From: Alkalihalobacillus sp. LMS39
GTDB taxonomy: Bacteria; Bacillota; Bacilli; Bacillales; Bacillaceae_F
Length of the DNA stretch: 64,000 bases
Assembly: GCF_022812285.1 (NCBI RefSeq)
Contig: NZ_CP093300.1
Location: 2,480,001-2,544,000, forward strand
Reading direction: 5' to 3'
Of the stretch, positions 1,427 through 52,224 are shown piece after piece. The notes below the pieces were generated by a model. That model was not told the origin of the DNA. It searched no databases and saw only the letters and a program-made list of their open reading frames with translations. The stretch's first letter is position 1, and each line of letters begins with the position of its first letter. A program made the translations under genes and the position numbers.

Positions 1427-2713
1427 TTAACATTTAACTTCAGCATTTTTTCGTTGATAATAATACCAGTTTAATACGATTGAAATAACATAAAATCCAA
1501 TAAAGTAGTAAAGGGCTGTAATTGGCGTTCCTGTTGTAGAAACAGACCAACCAAAAAGTTTTGGAATAAAGAATGAACCGTAAGCTGCAAAAGCTGCTGT
1601 AAACCCTAAAACAGGAGCGGCTTCTTTAACAGGGAATATAATTGGTATCATTTGGAATGTGGAACCAGAACCCATTCCTGCAGCAATAAATAAAATTAAA
1701 AATGAAATTAGGAAGCCTAAGAATGCTTGTTGTCCAATAAAGAAAATAACAGAGAAGGCGCCTAAGCCCATAACGATAAGAACAACGGTCGTTACTAAAG
1801 CTCCGCCAAATTTATCTGATAGCCAACCTCCAGCAGGGCGGAAAGCAGCAGCTAGAAAAGCTCCTAAAAATGCGAGAGAAACATACTCAGGAAACTGAGA
1901 TTTTAGTAATAGTGGAAATGCGGCTGCATACCCAATAAATGAACCGAAAGTTGCTACATATAAAATAGTCATAATCCATGTATGTTTTCTTTTCACAATA
2001 ACAAATTGATCTTTAACTGACTGTTTTGCTGTTGGTAAGTTATCCATGCCAAAATAAGCAACAATCGTCATAATGATAATTGGTACCACCCATACGAACG
2101 CAGCGTTTTGCAACCAAATTTGCGAACCGTCTGGTAATACTTGACCTTCGCCACCGATAAAAGCAAATGTTCCAATTGTAATCACTAATGGAGTAACAAA
2201 CTGAACAACTGATACCCCCATATTTCCTAAACCACCATTAATACCTAGGGCCGTTCCTTTTTCTTTTTTTGGATAAAAGAAGCTAATATTAGCTAAAGCT
2301 GATGAAAAGTTTCCGCCACCTAAACCACAAAGAGCGGCTAATAATAACATGATAGAGTATGGTGTATCTGGATTTTGAACCGCAAACCCAATCCCAATTG
2401 CCGGAATTGCAAGTACCCCTGTTGAAAACACGACCCAATTCCGACCTCCAAATTTCCCTACAGCAAATGTGTAAATAAAACGTAAGGATGCACCAACAAG
2501 ACCTGGCATCGCGGCTAATGTAAATAATTGTTCAGCGGTAAATTGGAAGCCAATATCGTTTAATCGTACGGCTACAACTGACCAAATTTGCCAAACGATG
2601 AATGCTAACATTAATGTAGGTACTGAGATCCATAAATTCCTTCTTGCATGACGTTTACCTTCTTTTTCCCAAAACACTTCATCTTCAGGATTCCATTCCT
2701 TTATTCGTGCCAT
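1427..2713 (-). CDS. narK: Nitrate/nitrite transporter, MFS NarK family
   Basis: A 428-residue major facilitator of the nitrate/nitrite porter type with 12 predicted membrane segments. It carries the glycine-rich NNP signature around residues 130-140 (LCGLGGGNFSSAL) and a second in the C-terminal half (AGMGSGSTFQMIP); the conserved arginine of segment 2 lies in GLVGASLRF. The ATG at 2713 has GGAGG 9 bases upstream. It is divergent from nasDE and shares an intergenic region with two Fnr palindromes. The context favours nitrite export or nitrate import during anaerobic growth. In Bacillus narK is a known Fnr target. No nitrate reductase genes are present in the window. Confidence 0.92.
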   Translation of the reverse strand: MARIKEWNPEDEVFWEKEGKRHARRNLWISVPTLMLAFIVWQIWSVVAVRLNDIGFQFTAEQLFTLAAMPGLVGASLRFIYTFAVGKFGGRNWVVFSTGVLAIPAIGIGFAVQNPDTPYSIMLLLAALCGLGGGNFSSALANISFFYPKKEKGTALGINGGLGNMGVSVVQFVTPLVITIGTFAFIGGEGQVLPDGSQIWLQNAAFVWVVPIIIMTIVAYFGMDNLPTAKQSVKDQFVIVKRKHTWIMTILYVATFGSFIGYAAAFPLLLKSQFPEYVSLAFLGAFLAAAFRPAGGWLSDKFGGALVTTVVLIVMGLGAFSVIFFIGQQAFLGFLISFLILFIAAGMGSGSTFQMIPIIFPVKEAAPVLGFTAAFAAYGSFFIPKLFGWSVSTTGTPITALYYFIGFYVISIVLNWYYYQRKNAEVKC

Positions 2714-13903: not shown

Positions 13904-14076
13904 CGATCAGTACGTTCTCCATTACTAATGTAATGACAGTGTTGGCCCTATTAAGGACAACCCCAATAAAAAAGGATGACGTCTTTTTTATTTCGGCAAA
14001 AAGCCCTTTCTAAAGTGGTCAAAGGTTGTCAGCCTCACACAATATACTTATGCTTTTCGCTCCTCAAACTAAATCG
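13904..14076 (-). ncRNA. Lysine riboswitch (L box)
   Basis: A 173-nt aptamer on the minus strand. It has the conserved blocks of the L box in order: GAGGAGCG, AAGTA, GAAAGGG, GCCGAAAT, ATTGGGG, CTGTCATTACAT and GGAGAACGTAC. The closing helix P1 forms between CGATTTAGT (14076-14068) and ACTGATCG (13911-13904) with one bulge. Lysine binding is expected to favour the terminator at 13849-13890 and so turn the transporter gene off. Confidence 0.88.
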
Positions 14077-28670: not shown

Positions 28671-28692
28671 TATGTAGCCCCACTTTGCCGCT

Positions 28693-28834
28693 ATTCAAGA
28701 TGTCTTAAAACCTACTCTCGTAGGTGGGTGTCCTTTCTTAGCCTTTCAACGTCCTTCTCTTATACAAAGGCGTGTTGTTGTGCATAGACGAGAAACTCCC
28801 TATTCATTCGTATCGGTTTAAGACATAGAGAACA
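28693..28834. other. Structured intergenic segment, possible small RNA
   Basis: ATGTCTTAAAACC (28700-28712) pairs with GGTTTAAGACAT (28815-28826) to close a segment of about 127 nt. Inside are CCTAC-TCTC-GTAGG (a GAGA tetraloop if read on the minus strand) and a bulged hairpin AACACGCCTT ... AAGGACGTT (minus strand). There is no open reading frame. I cannot match it to a known RNA or transposon end. The rest of the space to 28972 shows nothing further that I recognise. Confidence 0.45.
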
Positions 28835-28972
28835 TCGTACATCGCAGGAAAAGTTTTTGTAAGAAGATTGTCCCTATGGCAAGAAACAATAGTAAGTAAA
28901 TCTTTATAACTCATATATTATCATGTTCGTTTAGACGTACGCAATGGAAACTGAAGGTACGAAAACCAAATG

Positions 28973-32030: not shown

Positions 32031-32180
32031 CTAAAAAAAAGCAATTTTTAAAAATGTCAATGAAAAAATTGTTGAATCTTGTCTTGATCATTTTCAAAGA
32101 TTCAGATAATATAAGAGGTAATCTAATCAATATATGGAAACTATTTAAACAACGATCAACTGTATATAGTATTTTAGCTT

Positions 32181-32355
32181 AAATAAGATGCCATAGTGCT
32201 TAATAGGGAATCTGGTGTAAATCCAGAACTGCCCCCGCAACTGTAAATGCAGACGAAATAAGAAATCCACTGTAAAAAGGACATATTCATATAGGTCCTT
32301 ATACGGGAAGGTCTTAAAGTAGAATGAAGCATAAGTCAGGAGACCTATCTTATTT
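32181..32355 (+). ncRNA. Cobalamin (B12) riboswitch
   Basis: Classic cobalamin aptamer. P1 forms between AAATAAGAT (32181-32189) and ATCTTATTT (32347-32355). The conserved core includes GCCATAGTGC, AATAGGGAATCTGGTG, CCAGAACTGCCCCCGCAACT and the B12 box AAGTCAGGAGACC. It lies upstream of a B12-independent ribonucleotide reductase operon, so cobalamin is expected to shut that operon off. Confidence 0.95.
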
Positions 32356-32389
32356 AAAAATGTTTCACCTTTCTCGGGGATTGGGAAGA

Positions 32390-32478
32390 TGAAACGGTGG
32401 CTACTTGAAGAATTGAATTTTTAAAATTCACTTTTAGGTGTTATCGTTTCATCCGCTCAAATCATGAGCGGATTTTTT
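32390..32478 (+). terminator. B12 riboswitch expression platform
   Basis: The terminator is ATCCGCTC (32451-32458) / GAGCGGAT (32466-32473) plus a T-tract. TGAAAC at 32390-32395 can pair either with GTTTCA just 3' of the aptamer (32362-32367) or with GTTTCA at 32446-32451, whose 3' neighbours belong to the terminator stem. This gives a plausible antiterminator/anti-antiterminator switch. Confidence 0.7.
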
Positions 32479-32496
32479 ATTTTAAGGGGGATTCAC

Positions 32497-34785
32497 ATGA
32501 GTACACAAGTTCAATCTGAACTTCAATTTGTCGTTAACGCAATCGAAGAAGCAGCAGAGATTTACAAGCTTGATGCAACAAAAATGATTGAAAAGGTAAA
32601 AGAAATAAATGGTTCAGACAAAGACAAAAATCAACAAGCTTTGTTTTACGCTTTAAATAAAATTGCAATGGATGAACCAAATTGGACGTTTATGGCTGCA
32701 CGATTATATTTACAAGATTTATATAAAAAAGCTGCAGAAAATAGACAGTATGAATGGACAAAGAAGTATGGCGATTTCTATCCATTGCTTCAACATTTAA
32801 CCAAAGCCGGGATTTACTCTCCTGAACTAATGGATGCATATTCTAAAGAAGAAATTGTAGAATTAGGATTAGAAATTTGCCCAGAGAGAGATGAGTTATT
32901 TAATTACATAGGATTATTTTTGTTAGCAGACCGTTATTTAGCCACCGATCATGATCGTAATGTGTTTGAGTTACCTCAAGAACGCTTTATGATTATAGCG
33001 ATGACTTTAATGAAACAAGAAGAAAAAACGAAACGATTAGAACTTGTAAAAGAAGCATATTGGGCCTTAAGTCATTTATATATGACTGTCGCTACACCAA
33101 CGCTCTCAAATGCAGGAAAATCCTTTGGGCAACTATCATCATGTTTCATTGATACAGTTGATGATTCGCTTGATGGCATTTATTTAAACAATTGGGATAT
33201 TGCTAGATTAAGTAAAGATGGTGGCGGAATTGGTATTTACTATGGAAAGGTCCGCGCGTTAGGATCAGATATTAAAAAGTTTAAAGGAAACTCATCTGGT
33301 GTTGTGCCGTGGATTCGCTTAATTAATGATACTGCTGTAAGTGTCGACCAGCTTGGACAACGTCAAGGTGCAATCGCAATTTATCTTGATTTATTCCATA
33401 AAGATATTATGAACGGGTTTCTTGACTTAAAAACGAATAATGGGGATGAACGAAGAAAAGCCCATGATATTTTTACTGGGGTTTCTATACCTGACTTGTT
33501 CATGCAGAAATTAGAAGAAGTAGATGAGCAAGGGCGAAGTGTCGGCCAATGGCACACATTCTGTCCACATCAAGTGAAGCAAACGATGGGTTGGAAAGAT
33601 GAAAATGGACAACTATTAGGACTTGAAGATTTTTATGATGAAGAAGATCGTAAATATTTTACAGAAAAATACGAGGAAGCGGTCAATCATCCGCTATTGC
33701 CACGTAAAACATATCGAGCTATGGATATTATGGCCCGAATTATGGTTGCTCAACTTGAAACAGGTACACCATATATGTTCTATCGAGATGAAGTAAACCG
33801 ACAAAATCCTAATAAACATCTTCGCGGTGTTGGGAGAACATCGATTTATTGTAGTAATCTTTGTACAGAAATTGCGCAAAACATGTCTTCAACGATGATT
33901 ACGAAAGAATATGAGGATGAGGATGGAAACTTAGTTATCGTTCGAAAACCAGGCGATTTTGTTGTTTGTAATTTATCTTCTATCAATTTACCAAAAGCCG
34001 TTCGTTCTCATGTACTAGAAAGAGTAATCAAAATTCAAGTTCGTATGTTGGATAATGTCATTGACTTAAATACAATTCCAGTAGGACAAGCACAAGTCAC
34101 AAACCAAAAATATCGTGCTGTCGGATTGGGAACATTTGGATGGCATCATCTTTTAGCACTCGAAAACATTCATTGGGAATCTGATGAAGCTGTTCAATAT
34201 GCAGATGAACTTTATGAAAACATTGCATATTATACCATTCAAGCATCTATGACAATAGCAAAAGAAAAAGGGGCTTATCGCGCTTTTGAAGGATCAGAAT
34301 GGCAAACCGGTGACTACTTTAAAAGAAAAAATTATACATCAGACCGATGGCAACAGCTACAACGGGAAATCCAAACATATGGCATTCGTAACGGCTGGTT
34401 AATGGCGGTAGCACCAAATTCATCGACTGCGAAAATCGGGGGCTCAACAGATGGAATTGACCCGTTATACGCGGTTGAATATGCGGAAGAAAAGAAAAAC
34501 TTTAAGTTTAAAGTAACAGCTCCTGACTTAAACCATATTACGTATAATTATTATCGCAGAGCAAGACATGAACTTGACCAAGTGTGGAGTATTAAGCAAA
34601 ACGCAGCAAGACAACGTCATATCGACCAAGCGATTAGTTTTAACTTATATGTTCGCCATGATATAAAAGCAAAAGACTTGTTACAGCTTCATTTAGAGTC
34701 TTGGAAACATAAACTCAAAACAACATATTACGTCAGAAGCACTTCTCAAACCGAGATTGAAGAGTGTGAAGCATGCCATAGTTAA
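32497..34785 (+). CDS. Class I ribonucleotide reductase, alpha subunit
   Basis: A 762-residue catalytic subunit reducing ribonucleoside diphosphates (NrdA/NrdE type). Visible are LSSCFIDTV with the first active-site cysteine (about 216), the active loop NLCTEI with the thiyl cysteine, PNSSTAKI and the C-terminal redox pair CEACHS. The ATG at 32497 follows AAGGGGG; the longer frame begins inside the riboswitch terminator and is not used. It is the first gene of a three-gene operon with the beta subunit and a flavodoxin. The B12 riboswitch implies that a B12-dependent class II enzyme exists elsewhere in the genome and takes over when cobalamin is available. Confidence 0.93.
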   Translation: MSTQVQSELQFVVNAIEEAAEIYKLDATKMIEKVKEINGSDKDKNQQALFYALNKIAMDEPNWTFMAARLYLQDLYKKAAENRQYEWTKKYGDFYPLLQHLTKAGIYSPELMDAYSKEEIVELGLEICPERDELFNYIGLFLLADRYLATDHDRNVFELPQERFMIIAMTLMKQEEKTKRLELVKEAYWALSHLYMTVATPTLSNAGKSFGQLSSCFIDTVDDSLDGIYLNNWDIARLSKDGGGIGIYYGKVRALGSDIKKFKGNSSGVVPWIRLINDTAVSVDQLGQRQGAIAIYLDLFHKDIMNGFLDLKTNNGDERRKAHDIFTGVSIPDLFMQKLEEVDEQGRSVGQWHTFCPHQVKQTMGWKDENGQLLGLEDFYDEEDRKYFTEKYEEAVNHPLLPRKTYRAMDIMARIMVAQLETGTPYMFYRDEVNRQNPNKHLRGVGRTSIYCSNLCTEIAQNMSSTMITKEYEDEDGNLVIVRKPGDFVVCNLSSINLPKAVRSHVLERVIKIQVRMLDNVIDLNTIPVGQAQVTNQKYRAVGLGTFGWHHLLALENIHWESDEAVQYADELYENIAYYTIQASMTIAKEKGAYRAFEGSEWQTGDYFKRKNYTSDRWQQLQREIQTYGIRNGWLMAVAPNSSTAKIGGSTDGIDPLYAVEYAEEKKNFKFKVTAPDLNHITYNYYRRARHELDQVWSIKQNAARQRHIDQAISFNLYVRHDIKAKDLLQLHLESWKHKLKTTYYVRSTSQTEIEECEACHS

Positions 34786-36883: not shown

Positions 36884-37615
36884 TTAATCCCAAAAATTAA
36901 ATAAAAACTCTCCATTTGTTTTCGGTAAAAAATGAGAAACATAATACTCCACATCAAATTCCTCAACCCCTGTAACAACATCCTCTATGTTCAAAGGTTG
37001 ATTTAAAAATTGGACAGATAATACTTCATATGGCAGACCGAAACATTCAGCAAGTTCACTATCGTCAAAGAATACAAACGGATAATTACCAAGGTCCTTT
37101 ACGAAAGCAACACGATAATGGTTACATAAAAGATAAAGTGGACCTTTGCTAAAGTGAAGTTTGACTGTATTAAAACTTGTATAACCTAATTGTTCAAACG
37201 TGAGCACAGTATAGGGTAGTTTATAAGATTGCGCAATGTGCTTGCATTTGTTTTGGAAATCGACAAAGTCATATGGAGAATAATTCTGTGGCTCGTATAT
37301 TTTTGTAAGCGGCAGTGTTCGATTATACAACCTCATTTCAATTTCTTCCTTCATTCGTTTTATATTTGGTTCATAAAGAAGTAAATCTTCAATTTCAGAA
37401 AACGATAGGATTCCAGGCCTCGCTTGATTGTCACGATCAATTGCATCTGTAAACCCCCAGGATTTATCTTCTTTTATCAAGCTATAAGTAATTGTTAGTT
37501 TTTCGCCATTTACATAAAGATGCACCTTTAATTCATGGATCAATACGAATTCATCATCTTTTCGTATAGAATAATTTTCATATGAACAATGAATAACCGA
37601 ATAATGACTAGCCAT
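36884..37615 (-). CDS. Hypothetical protein, 243 residues
   Basis: A soluble protein without a recognised domain. The N-terminal 60 residues suggest beta strands (VLIHELKVHLYVNGEKLTIT); the rest is mixed and rich in Tyr and Phe. There is no signal peptide or membrane segment. The start is set at 37615 because GGAAGTG lies 5 bases upstream; an ATG at 37645 has no ribosome binding site. It is bounded by its own terminator and divergent from the riboswitch-controlled FAD gene. Function unknown. Confidence 0.65.
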   Translation of the reverse strand: MASHYSVIHCSYENYSIRKDDEFVLIHELKVHLYVNGEKLTITYSLIKEDKSWGFTDAIDRDNQARPGILSFSEIEDLLLYEPNIKRMKEEIEMRLYNRTLPLTKIYEPQNYSPYDFVDFQNKCKHIAQSYKLPYTVLTFEQLGYTSFNTVKLHFSKGPLYLLCNHYRVAFVKDLGNYPFVFFDDSELAECFGLPYEVLSVQFLNQPLNIEDVVTGVEEFDVEYYVSHFLPKTNGEFLFNFWD

Positions 37616-37770
37616 GTTTTCACTTCCACATTTTTCTTTCATCATACCATATAGGAGTGAGGATTAATTCGTATTACATCAATGTTCGGATTTTAATGTT
37701 CTTACAGTGGAATTCTTTACTATTTTACAAAATATCAATGAAAAACACGAATAAATACGATGGAATGATA

Positions 37771-37798
37771 TTGACACTTATAAAATTTCGTTTATAAT
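37771..37798 (+). promoter_or_regulatory. Sigma-A promoter of the purine-riboswitch transcript
   Basis: TTGACA and TATAAT, both perfect, separated by 16 bases; start predicted near 37805, just before the aptamer. Confidence 0.85.
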
Positions 37799-37812
37799 AA
37801 ACAATTGTGATA

Positions 37813-37879
37813 GTTCGTATATCCTCAATAATAAGGTTTGAGGGTCTCTAGAAGGAACCGATAATTCCTAACTACGAAC
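37813..37879 (+). ncRNA. Purine-riboswitch-family aptamer with altered junctions
   Basis: A 67-nt three-way junction: P1 GTTCGTA / TACGAAC, P2 CCTCAA / TTGAGG with loop TAATAAGGT, P3 AGGAA / TTCCT with loop CCGATAA. The specificity base in J3/1 is C (AACTAC), as in guanine-type RNAs. Several usually fixed positions differ: J1/2 lacks one A, J2/3 reads GTCTCTAGA where GTGTCTACC or similar is normal, the P3 base pair next to the junction is an A-A mismatch, and both loops carry changes. The ligand is therefore open. Confidence 0.8.
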
Positions 37880-37915
37880 GGGACAGGAATGGCTCCGTTT
37901 ACGTTAGGTTTTTTT
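37867..37915 (+). terminator. Terminator overlapping the purine aptamer (ON-switch layout)
   Basis: CCTAAC-T-ACGAACGG, which includes the 3' strands of P3 and P1, pairs with CCGTTTACGTTAGG (37895-37908), followed by seven T. Folding of the aptamer prevents this hairpin, so ligand binding should permit read-through into the FAD gene. Confidence 0.8.
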
Positions 37916-37954
37916 GCTGTCCAAAAGTAGATCAACATTCATGGGGGAATTAGA

Positions 37955-39385
37955 ATGAACAAATATGATGCTATTATTGTTGGAGCTGGTCCAGCGGGGA
38001 TTTTCGCTAGTTATGAACTATTAGAAAAAAAACCAAATGCAAAAGTGTTACTTATAGATAAAGGACACGATATTTACCGAAGAAATTGTCCGATTTTAGA
38101 AGAGAAAATTCAATTTTGTCCACCTGCAGCAGGTAAAAAAGACTTTGCTGGCTGTTTGCCTGCCTGTTCGATTACCAATGGTTTTGGTGGGGCTGGGGCA
38201 TATAGTGATGGGAAATTTAATATCACTACAGAATTCGGTGGTTGGATGACCGATTATTTACAACCGTCCAAAGTCGTTGAATTAATCCGTTATGTCGATG
38301 AGATTAATTTAAAACATGGCGCAACAAACACCATTACAGACCCTACAACAGAAAAAGTAAGAGAAATTGAACAAAAGGGCTATGGAGCGGGGTTAAAATT
38401 ATTGCGAGCAGAAGTTCGTCACTTAGGAACAGAACAAAACTTAGAAATTTTAAAATCGATTTATGAATATTTAAAAGATAAAATCGACATGATGTACAAA
38501 ACAGAAGTAAAAGATATCTTAACGGAAAAAATCGACGGAAAGCATAAAATATATGGCATCGCCTTAAAAAATGGCACGGAGTTTACTAGTGATTTTGTCA
38601 TGATTGCCCCGGGAAGAGATGGGTCGGCATGGCTAACAGATATTCTTAAAAAAAGAAAATTAAAAATGTATAATAACCAAGTGGATGTTGGTGTACGTGT
38701 AGAAACATCAGATGTAGTCATGAGAGAAATTAATGAACATTTATATGAAGGAAAATTCATTTTTAACACATCTGTCGGGACTCAAGTCAGAACATTTTGT
38801 AGCAATCCGTCTGGCCATGTTGTAGTAGAAAACCATAGTGGCATTATGGCAGCGAATGGACACTCTTATAAAGACCCTGCGTTAGGATCAAAAAATACAA
38901 ATTTCGCCTTACTTGTTTCTCATAAATTTACAGAACCATTTGATAAACCAAATGAATATGCAAGAGAAATTTGTAAACGTGCCAATGATTTATCAAACGG
39001 CGGCGTTATCGTTCAAAAATTTGGTGATATTATGAAAGGAAGACGTTCAACGGAGAAGCGAATTCAAGAGGGTTTCCTAGAGCCGACATTAAAAGAAGCG
39101 GTTCCAGGTGATTTAGGCCTTGTGCTTCCTTACAATACGATGAAAAGCCTTGTTGAAATGGTCGAAGCGTTAGATAAAGTGACACCTGGACTAGCTTCAG
39201 AACACACTTTATTTTATGGTGTTGAAGCAAAATTTTACTCAGCCAGACCGAAGCTTACAGAGGAATTTGAAACTGAAATTCAAGGATTATATTGTGGTGG
39301 TGATGGAGCAGGAATTACAAGAGGTCTTGCTCAAGCAGGAGCGGCCGGAGTTTGGATCGCTCGCAATATGGCCAAAAGACTGTAA
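37955..39385 (+). CDS. FAD-dependent dehydrogenase-like protein (COG2509 type)
   Basis: A 476-residue flavoprotein with an N-terminal dinucleotide-binding fold (VGAGPAGIFASYELL, about 9-23) and a C-terminal flavin-binding stretch (GLYCGGDGAGITRGLAQAGAAG near 448). A Cys-containing segment (FCPPAAGKKDFAGCLPAC near 53) lies after the first domain and could hold redox cysteines. Proteins of this family are widespread in Firmicutes and poorly characterised. The purine-family riboswitch with ON layout suggests a role in handling a purine or related compound; this is inference. GGGGG lies 7 bases before the ATG; single-gene unit. Confidence 0.85.
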   Translation: MNKYDAIIVGAGPAGIFASYELLEKKPNAKVLLIDKGHDIYRRNCPILEEKIQFCPPAAGKKDFAGCLPACSITNGFGGAGAYSDGKFNITTEFGGWMTDYLQPSKVVELIRYVDEINLKHGATNTITDPTTEKVREIEQKGYGAGLKLLRAEVRHLGTEQNLEILKSIYEYLKDKIDMMYKTEVKDILTEKIDGKHKIYGIALKNGTEFTSDFVMIAPGRDGSAWLTDILKKRKLKMYNNQVDVGVRVETSDVVMREINEHLYEGKFIFNTSVGTQVRTFCSNPSGHVVVENHSGIMAANGHSYKDPALGSKNTNFALLVSHKFTEPFDKPNEYAREICKRANDLSNGGVIVQKFGDIMKGRRSTEKRIQEGFLEPTLKEAVPGDLGLVLPYNTMKSLVEMVEALDKVTPGLASEHTLFYGVEAKFYSARPKLTEEFETEIQGLYCGGDGAGITRGLAQAGAAGVWIARNMAKRL

Positions 39386-51920: not shown

Positions 51921-52111
51921 TGAATGAATTCTCCTTACACCGCTTCTTTTTTCAATCTTGGAAGCTAGCTTAATCTCTTCTCATCTATGATTTTATCATA
52001 TTCGATTTTAATTCCATGTTCAAATGATATTTCTGATCTTCAATGACTAAAAATCAAGTTAATGTTGTTCGTAACTCCAAGCTATGGTATTCTTTACTAA
52101 ATTAGAAAAGT

Positions 52112-52198
52112 CATGGGGAGCTATGAGGTTTGCTGAGAGGATATCCTGTTGAAGATATCGACCCAATAACCTGATCTGGATAATGCCAGCGGAGGGAG
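52112..52198 (+). ncRNA. TPP riboswitch (thi box)
   Basis: Conserved blocks GGGGAGCTATGAGG, TGCTGAGAGGAT, then CGACCC, ACCTGATCTGGATAATGCCA and GCGGAGGGA. It precedes the thiamine-precursor transport operon and should turn it off when thiamine pyrophosphate is plentiful. Confidence 0.96.
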
Positions 52199-52224
52199 GA
52201 TATACAAATCTATTAAAATGTATG

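Follow-up and report, generated by a model that had tools for sequence, protein, structure and literature searches.

A guanine-type riboswitch in ON layout precedes a conserved flavoprotein gene in Alkalihalobacillus and other Bacilli

Results

Organization of the locus

The window analysed in this study is a stretch of 64,000 nucleotides (positions 2480001-2544000) from the one-contig genome of Alkalihalobacillus sp. LMS39, which has a size of 4.85 Mb. On its forward strand a sigma-A promoter (TTGACA-16-TATAAT, 37771..37798), which agrees with the consensus in 12 of 12 letters, is followed by a purine aptamer (37813..37879), an intrinsic terminator recognized by folding (37867..37915), a likely ribosome-binding site (GGGGG, 37943..37947, by sequence inspection) and a gene for a FAD-binding oxidoreductase-like protein of 476 amino acids (37955..39385), which resembles VP0956/3NLC; a FAD protein at this place had been predicted. 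A divergent ORF of 253 amino acids (36884-37645, start at 37645, reverse strand), for which no Pfam or NCBIfam match was obtained, has the intergenic region in common with the FAD gene. This region includes a candidate PurR-box-like site, AAATCCGAACATT (37681..37693, reverse strand), which matches the consensus AWWWCCGAACWWT with 0 mismatches.

Several other structured RNAs in the window score above the Rfam cut-off, namely a lysine riboswitch (13904-14075, reverse strand), a 6S RNA (28673-28853, reverse strand) and a TPP riboswitch (52104-52214, forward strand). A 6S RNA is also called near the FAD gene at the same-genus locus L087 (3809-3965). A cobalamin riboswitch (32169-32366, forward strand, 103.4 bits) is located directly 5' of an ORF resembling the large subunit of ribonucleotide reductase (32464-34785), which is followed by the small subunit and a flavodoxin. 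The RF00167 search revealed four purine riboswitches in the whole genome. Judged from the starts of the encoded proteins, the other three presumably precede purE, an NCS2 permease gene and guaA.

Family membership and junction letters of the aptamer

The RNA matches the Purine family RF00167 (37795-37894, forward strand) with 66.9 bits and an E-value of 1.5e-9, the cut-off being 37. The isolated aptamer (37809-37880) folds into P1, P2 and P3 with -18.3 kcal/mol (z -2.07; 7 of 200 shuffles are equally stable), and among 43 distinct relatives both sides are changed in 12 of the 21 pairs, a number that is reached by none of 500 shuffles. Family score, fold and covariation together confirm the purine-family aptamer with a three-way junction that the original prediction had proposed.

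P1 is formed by 37813-37819 and 37873-37879, P2 by 37823-37829 and 37837-37843 with U.U as its last pair, and P3 by 37853-37857 and 37865-37869, all on the forward strand. J1/2 (37820-37822) was thought to be one base short. The Rfam alignment rules out such a deletion and gives a full-length UAU, in which A24 is replaced by U; according to the same alignment the first P2 pair is C-G and not U-A. The letters of J2/3 had to be amended to GUCUCUAG (37844-37851), followed by an unpaired A54 (37852). The A-A at the P3 position adjoining the junction was seen correctly and is an A54.A72 mismatch, and the guanine-type C in J3/1 (A72 A73 C74, 37870-37872) is present as C74. As to the claim that both loops are changed, L2 (AAUAAGG, 37830-37836) and L3 (CCGAUAA, 37858-37864) are indeed off consensus, yet they keep the GG and CC letters that make the loop-loop contact.

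The positions U22, U47, U51 and C74 contact the ligand. Their equivalents are invariant in the window and in all 112 aptamers found at FAD genes, a set in which near-duplicates are counted. J1/2 reads UAU in 106 and UAA in 6 of these aptamers, and J2/3 is GUUUCUAC in 50, GUCUCUAC in 49, GUCUCUAG in 12 and GUUUCUAG in one. At 54.72 we found A.G (76), A.A (21), U.G (6), C-G (6), U-A (2) and G.A (1); nucleotide 73 is G in 74, A in 32 and U in 6 aptamers, while nucleotide 74 is always C. A G53 occurs in 13 of the 112 aptamers, always together with A72, and was seen in the genus of the window and some Paenibacillus.

The best 30 RF00167 loci of the order, a consensus-biased sample, carry C54-G72 and A73 in 30 of 30 cases and UAA in 28. 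Because of this bias the complete set of 99 purine riboswitches from 23 related genomes was examined as well. Within the genome of the window the guaA leader also shows U24, A54.G72 and G73, with its terminator separate from the aptamer, so that such deviations alone are no marker of a new ligand.

Terminator and ON layout

The terminator segment (37860-37915) folds with -14.8 kcal/mol (z -2.33; 5 of 200 shuffles are equally stable), although a simple terminator scan made no call at 37867-37915. The stem (37867-37908) has an outer part (37867-37872/37903-37908) and an inner part (37876-37882/37894-37900) and is followed by a run of seven U (37909-37915), all on the forward strand. As predicted it draws on the 3' strands of both P3 and P1, and it also takes in the intervening J3/1. 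Since nucleotides 37867-37879 are common to both structures, aptamer and terminator are mutually exclusive, and the ON layout that had been proposed is supported by the same overlap in the relatives: folding from the 3' strand of P3 to the U-run places the 5' arm of the terminator within the aptamer in the window and in 108 of 111 FAD leaders. The minimum of the whole 112-nt leader is the terminator form (-26.3 kcal/mol), an energy that is ordinary in comparison to shuffles (z -0.56).

In the absence of ligand the nascent RNA would run into the terminator, whose 5' arm takes up the 3' strands of P3 and of P1 as well as nucleotides 72-74, among them C74, which pairs with the ligand. Binding of guanine would lock these three elements in the aptamer, no terminator would form and the FAD gene would be read. 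Both guanine as the ligand and the switching in cells are what we infer here.

Double use of nucleotides 72 and 73

In the 108 overlapping terminators nucleotide 72 forms G-C (76), A-U (20) or G-U (4) pairs and is unpaired in 8. Nucleotide 73 pairs as G-C (45), G-U (17), A-U (23), U-A (3) or U-G (3) and is unpaired in 17, and C74 pairs with G in the terminators of 97 FAD leaders. When nucleotides 72-73 were swapped between differing leaders (2160 cases), the fold became weaker in 1714 and stronger in 248 cases, with a mean change of +3.9 kcal/mol. Replacing G72 by A weakened the fold in 66 of 71 distinct leaders. The reverse change of A72 to G (n=15) hardly altered the terminator (5 weaker, 2 stronger, mean +0.15 kcal/mol), which counts against a purely terminator-driven A72.

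Among the 99 riboswitches of the 23 related genomes, loss of C54-G72 accompanies an overlapping terminator (16/32 versus 5/56, p 4e-5, kinship uncorrected), where 9 riboswitches lacking a called terminator and 2 with U74 stand outside the comparison. For arms reaching nucleotide 72 only, the link to the loss of C54-G72 is not significant in this set (6/16 versus 18/81, p 0.21), and neither U24 (p 0.06) nor nucleotide 73 is significantly linked to an overlapping terminator. The automated layout calls are rough; the riboswitch L002 of the window's own genome was called separate in one analysis and overlapping in another. Because of these weak links and rough calls the claim of double use is based mainly on the FAD leaders. 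Re-use of nucleotides 72-73 in the terminator, and not a new ligand pocket, is the best explanation for their deviations and for the loss of the 54-72 pair that comes with them. The terminator does not account for G53 and U24.

Conservation of the aptamer and the flavoprotein gene

The flavoprotein is 99% identical to proteins of Alkalihalobacillus bogoriensis (L045) and of a further genome of the same genus (G002). A protein scan of named genomes gave 395 relatives, and the analysis went on with the best 80 (82-99% identity). The same pair of aptamer and gene, for which a search in relatives had been suggested, proved to be widely conserved: at these best 80 of 395 homologue loci the aptamer is present in 80 of 80, on the same strand and 30-354 nt 5' of the matched start. 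The search model was built from part of these 80 loci; RF00167 itself was run on 12 of them and matched in 12. In the set of 299 Bacilli genomes the flavoprotein (E below 1e-130) is found in 104, and all 26 loci with 83-87% identity carry the aptamer. The aptamer could also have degenerated or fallen out of use, with the terminator alone setting basal expression, but this is highly improbable. The RF00167 score of the aptamer is the lowest of the four in its own genome and the full leader favours the terminator form, but the isolated aptamer folds, and aptamer and overlap have been kept in Paenibacillus, Brevibacillus and relatives, with covariation.

Among homologues with at most 80% identity the aptamer was found in only 2 of the 40 upstream regions examined (of 77 genomes). 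These two, L265 (1199-1267, forward strand) and L277 (135-203, reverse strand), come from another family and carry a guanine-type aptamer (51.3 bits) that ends 27 nt upstream of the ATG. Aptamer and FAD gene seem to have come together independently here, and as the gap of 27 nt is too short for the terminator layout, control is possibly translational.

Clustering of 526 ORFs from the 80 loci revealed no conserved neighbourhood of the FAD gene; the largest group of neighbours comprises 23 loci and, judged by eye, is not purine-gene-like. The FAD gene gave no PADLOC match that would indicate an anti-phage role, and a search of IMG/VR for viral copies with one exact IUPAC pattern gave 0 matches. 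In the open-access literature we found no paper linking a purine or guanine riboswitch to a FAD-dependent oxidoreductase, COG2509, a Paenibacillus oxidoreductase or GMP reductase.

Related leaders and the PurR-box-like site

Model matches above about 70 bits were also obtained 5' of other genes in the relatives. They precede the GMP reductase gene guaC (13 leaders), genes for NCS2 permeases of more than one kind (26 in the sample) and genes for an amidohydrolase of the 5'-deoxyadenosine deaminase family (14). Ten matches with U74 are located 5' of genes for adenosine deaminase, adenine deaminase and presumed pbuE-like exporters, as would be expected of adenine switches; the exporters and the NCS2 permeases are named from the protein starts. 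Guanine is the natural signal for guaC, and the aptamers before guaC and the NCS2 permease genes are of the same ON kind as the one in the window.

PurR-box-like sites were searched with the consensus AWWWCCGAACWWT, requiring the CGAA core and allowing up to 2 mismatches, and expectations were taken from mononucleotide shuffles. Such a site is present in 74 of the 80 aptamer-bearing FAD leaders (3.7 expected) and in 29 of the 40 upstream regions of the homologues with at most 80% identity (2.8 expected). It was also found in 13 of 13 guaC leaders and 12 of 13 NCS2 leaders, compared to 1 of 11 amidohydrolase leaders and 0 of 6 adenosine-deaminase leaders (about 5% expected in each case). In the window the site at 37681..37693 is the sole perfect consensus match within 64 kb. 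Taken alone it carries no significance, as 0.40 matches with at most 1 mismatch are expected and 30 of 100 shuffles have one, and it is located between two divergent genes; its weight comes from the enrichment in the relatives. In Bacillus subtilis guaC is assigned to the PurR regulon by the title of Saxild 2001, as given in the reference list of PMC9430930. PurR would bind to these sites, and the FAD gene would belong to the purine regulon, where a PurR-box-like site and a guanine ON switch are combined as they are at guaC and the NCS2 genes of the relatives. A guanine-class riboswitch with a transcriptional ON layout on a PurR-linked gene for the re-use of guanine is the likely reading of this leader, with guanine as the presumed ligand.

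An ON-type aptamer with C74 precedes the amidohydrolase gene at L140, L144, L145, L151-L157, L171, L174, L178 and L180. The protein is annotated as 5'-deoxyadenosine deaminase (NF005557, 718 bits for L140), and it may act on a guanine compound. At L136 an ON-type aptamer (1501-1571, forward strand) is followed by a long terminator-like stem, and no ORF of 90 amino acids starts within the next 900 nt searched.

Comparison with known purine riboswitches

The window RNA has the three-way junction, U22, U47, U51, C74, the GG and CC loop letters and a score over the cut-off in common with the guanine-I class (RF00167). It differs by the 54.72 mismatch and the change of A24 to U, both of which were also seen in some ordinary members, by an ON platform that re-uses J3/1, and by its gene, which encodes a FAD protein and not one of the usual functions in purine biosynthesis or uptake. 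The ON riboswitches for adenine (add, pbuE, ade in Bacilli) use the same scaffold, and in 7 of 10 U74 leaders the terminator arm lies inside the aptamer; they have U74 where the window has C74, and no PurR-box-like site is found in the 6 adenosine-deaminase leaders. The 8-oxoguanine riboswitch has its own consensus and is linked to 8-oxoguanine deaminase, whereas the window gene encodes a FAD protein. The guaC gene (TIGR01306) of the relatives has the same kind of ON aptamer, a PurR-box-like site and a phyletic pattern complementary to that of the FAD gene; its protein family is unrelated to the flavoprotein.

The original prediction regarded the altered pocket as a sign of another ligand. An aptamer of changed specificity, for example for 8-oxoguanine, xanthine, hypoxanthine or a guanine nucleoside, with an induced redox enzyme acting on that compound, would fit the conserved departures at 24, 54, 72 and 73, and at 53 in 13 of 112 aptamers. 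Relatives with other ligands do exist: PMC9295807 describes xanthine-II, guanine-II and 2'-dG-III as same-scaffold variants in Firmicutes that are predicted ON switches, and it also names an 8-oxoguanine class. According to this paper, xanthine-II and guanine-II carry inserted letters in J2-3/J3-1, with U51G in xanthine-II, and 2'-dG-III, which is tied to a nucleoside hydrolase, deviates in all three joining regions. Compared with that description, the Rfam alignment of the window RNA shows no insertion in J2-3 or J3-1 and a kept U51, so neither the altered contact letter nor the insertion of these variants is found here. The contact letters are invariant in 112 of 112 aptamers, related deviations occur before guaA and guaC, and nucleotides 72-73 co-vary with the terminator arm. 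The altered pocket was for these reasons set aside as the main explanation, and a new ligand class is unlikely. As to an ordinary guanine riboswitch with consensus junctions in relatives, the outcome set against the altered pocket, the family match is ordinary but close relatives share the deviations. A guanine-type ON riboswitch of the known family with an unusual, conserved platform is well supported, guanine again being the presumed ligand.

The flavoprotein and its avoidance of guaC

The Pfam and NCBIfam matches of the flavoprotein are FAD and nucleotide-binding families, with no GMP reductase family among them, and we take COG2509 to be its label. A first AlphaFold model from 21 sequences (pLDDT 55.6) was set aside in favour of one from 32 sequences (pLDDT 84.9), in which residues 46-48 and 50-73, located between conserved cysteines, are below 50. 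In the fold search 3NLC stood out clearly as the best match, ahead of general FAD oxidoreductases. Among the best 50 matches of either list none is named as a nucleotide reductase, an outcome that excludes nothing.

The genome of the window has no match to TIGR01306 (guaC) at E 1e-100. With guaC called by TIGR01306 over the cut-off and the FAD protein by E below 1e-130, the two hardly occur together. In the 299 Bacilli genomes there are 104 with the FAD protein, 113 with guaC and 1 with both (39.3 expected, p 6e-27, kinship ignored), and in 199 genomes of the same order the numbers are 65, 102 and 7 (33.3 expected, p 1.6e-16, kinship ignored). When the order set was shuffled within families, 16.9 genomes with both were expected versus the 7 seen, and 0 of 20000 shuffles gave a number as low. 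Thirteen families contain FAD-only and guaC-only genomes alike. In the family of the window, the three genomes of the same genus have the FAD gene, and three of four genomes of a sister genus have guaC. For guaC and adenine deaminase no avoidance was seen in the same-order set; an adenosine deaminase control was dropped, as the gene is present in only 13 of 199 genomes.

As the flavoprotein occurs mostly where GMP reductase is absent, it may serve a comparable purpose. One proposal, drawn from regulation and phyletic pattern and given a little less than an even chance, is that it stands in for GMP reductase without being an orthologue, either by converting GMP to IMP or by an equivalent guanine-to-IMP route, and that it is expressed under an AND gate. 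The gate would open when PurR is off, at high PRPP and purine need, and guanine is present at the ON riboswitch. The flavoprotein would then have replaced guaC, or vice versa, many times across Bacilli with the regulatory logic unchanged.

Whether the flavoprotein instead carries out another step, for example guanine oxidation, purine-linked redox or cofactor repair, with the avoidance of guaC reflecting lifestyle or shared history, is an even call. By fold and sequence the protein groups with uncharacterised flavoproteins. Neither gene is present in 39 of the 199 order genomes and 83 of the 299 Bacilli genomes, both are present in eight genomes of the two sets (7 and 1), and the 14 genomes with only a homologue of about 30% identity, which was not counted as the FAD protein, all have guaC. 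The FAD gene also weakly avoids adenine deaminase in the unstratified comparison (32 with both versus 41.5 expected, p 0.0025). This effect falls short when shuffled within families (32 versus 34.7, P 0.08), while the avoidance of guaC survives the same treatment, and the ON aptamer type and the PurR-box-like site are common to the FAD gene and guaC, both points speaking against this alternative.

Discussion

The leader described here indicates that the junction letters of a riboswitch can drift through their re-use in a terminator, so that a deviation beside the pocket does not in itself point to a new ligand. Together with the conserved leader, the avoidance of guaC gives a testable role to a highly conserved, uncharacterised flavoprotein. 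If the replacement of GMP reductase is true, this protein may account for the GMP-to-IMP step that is missing in many Bacilli.
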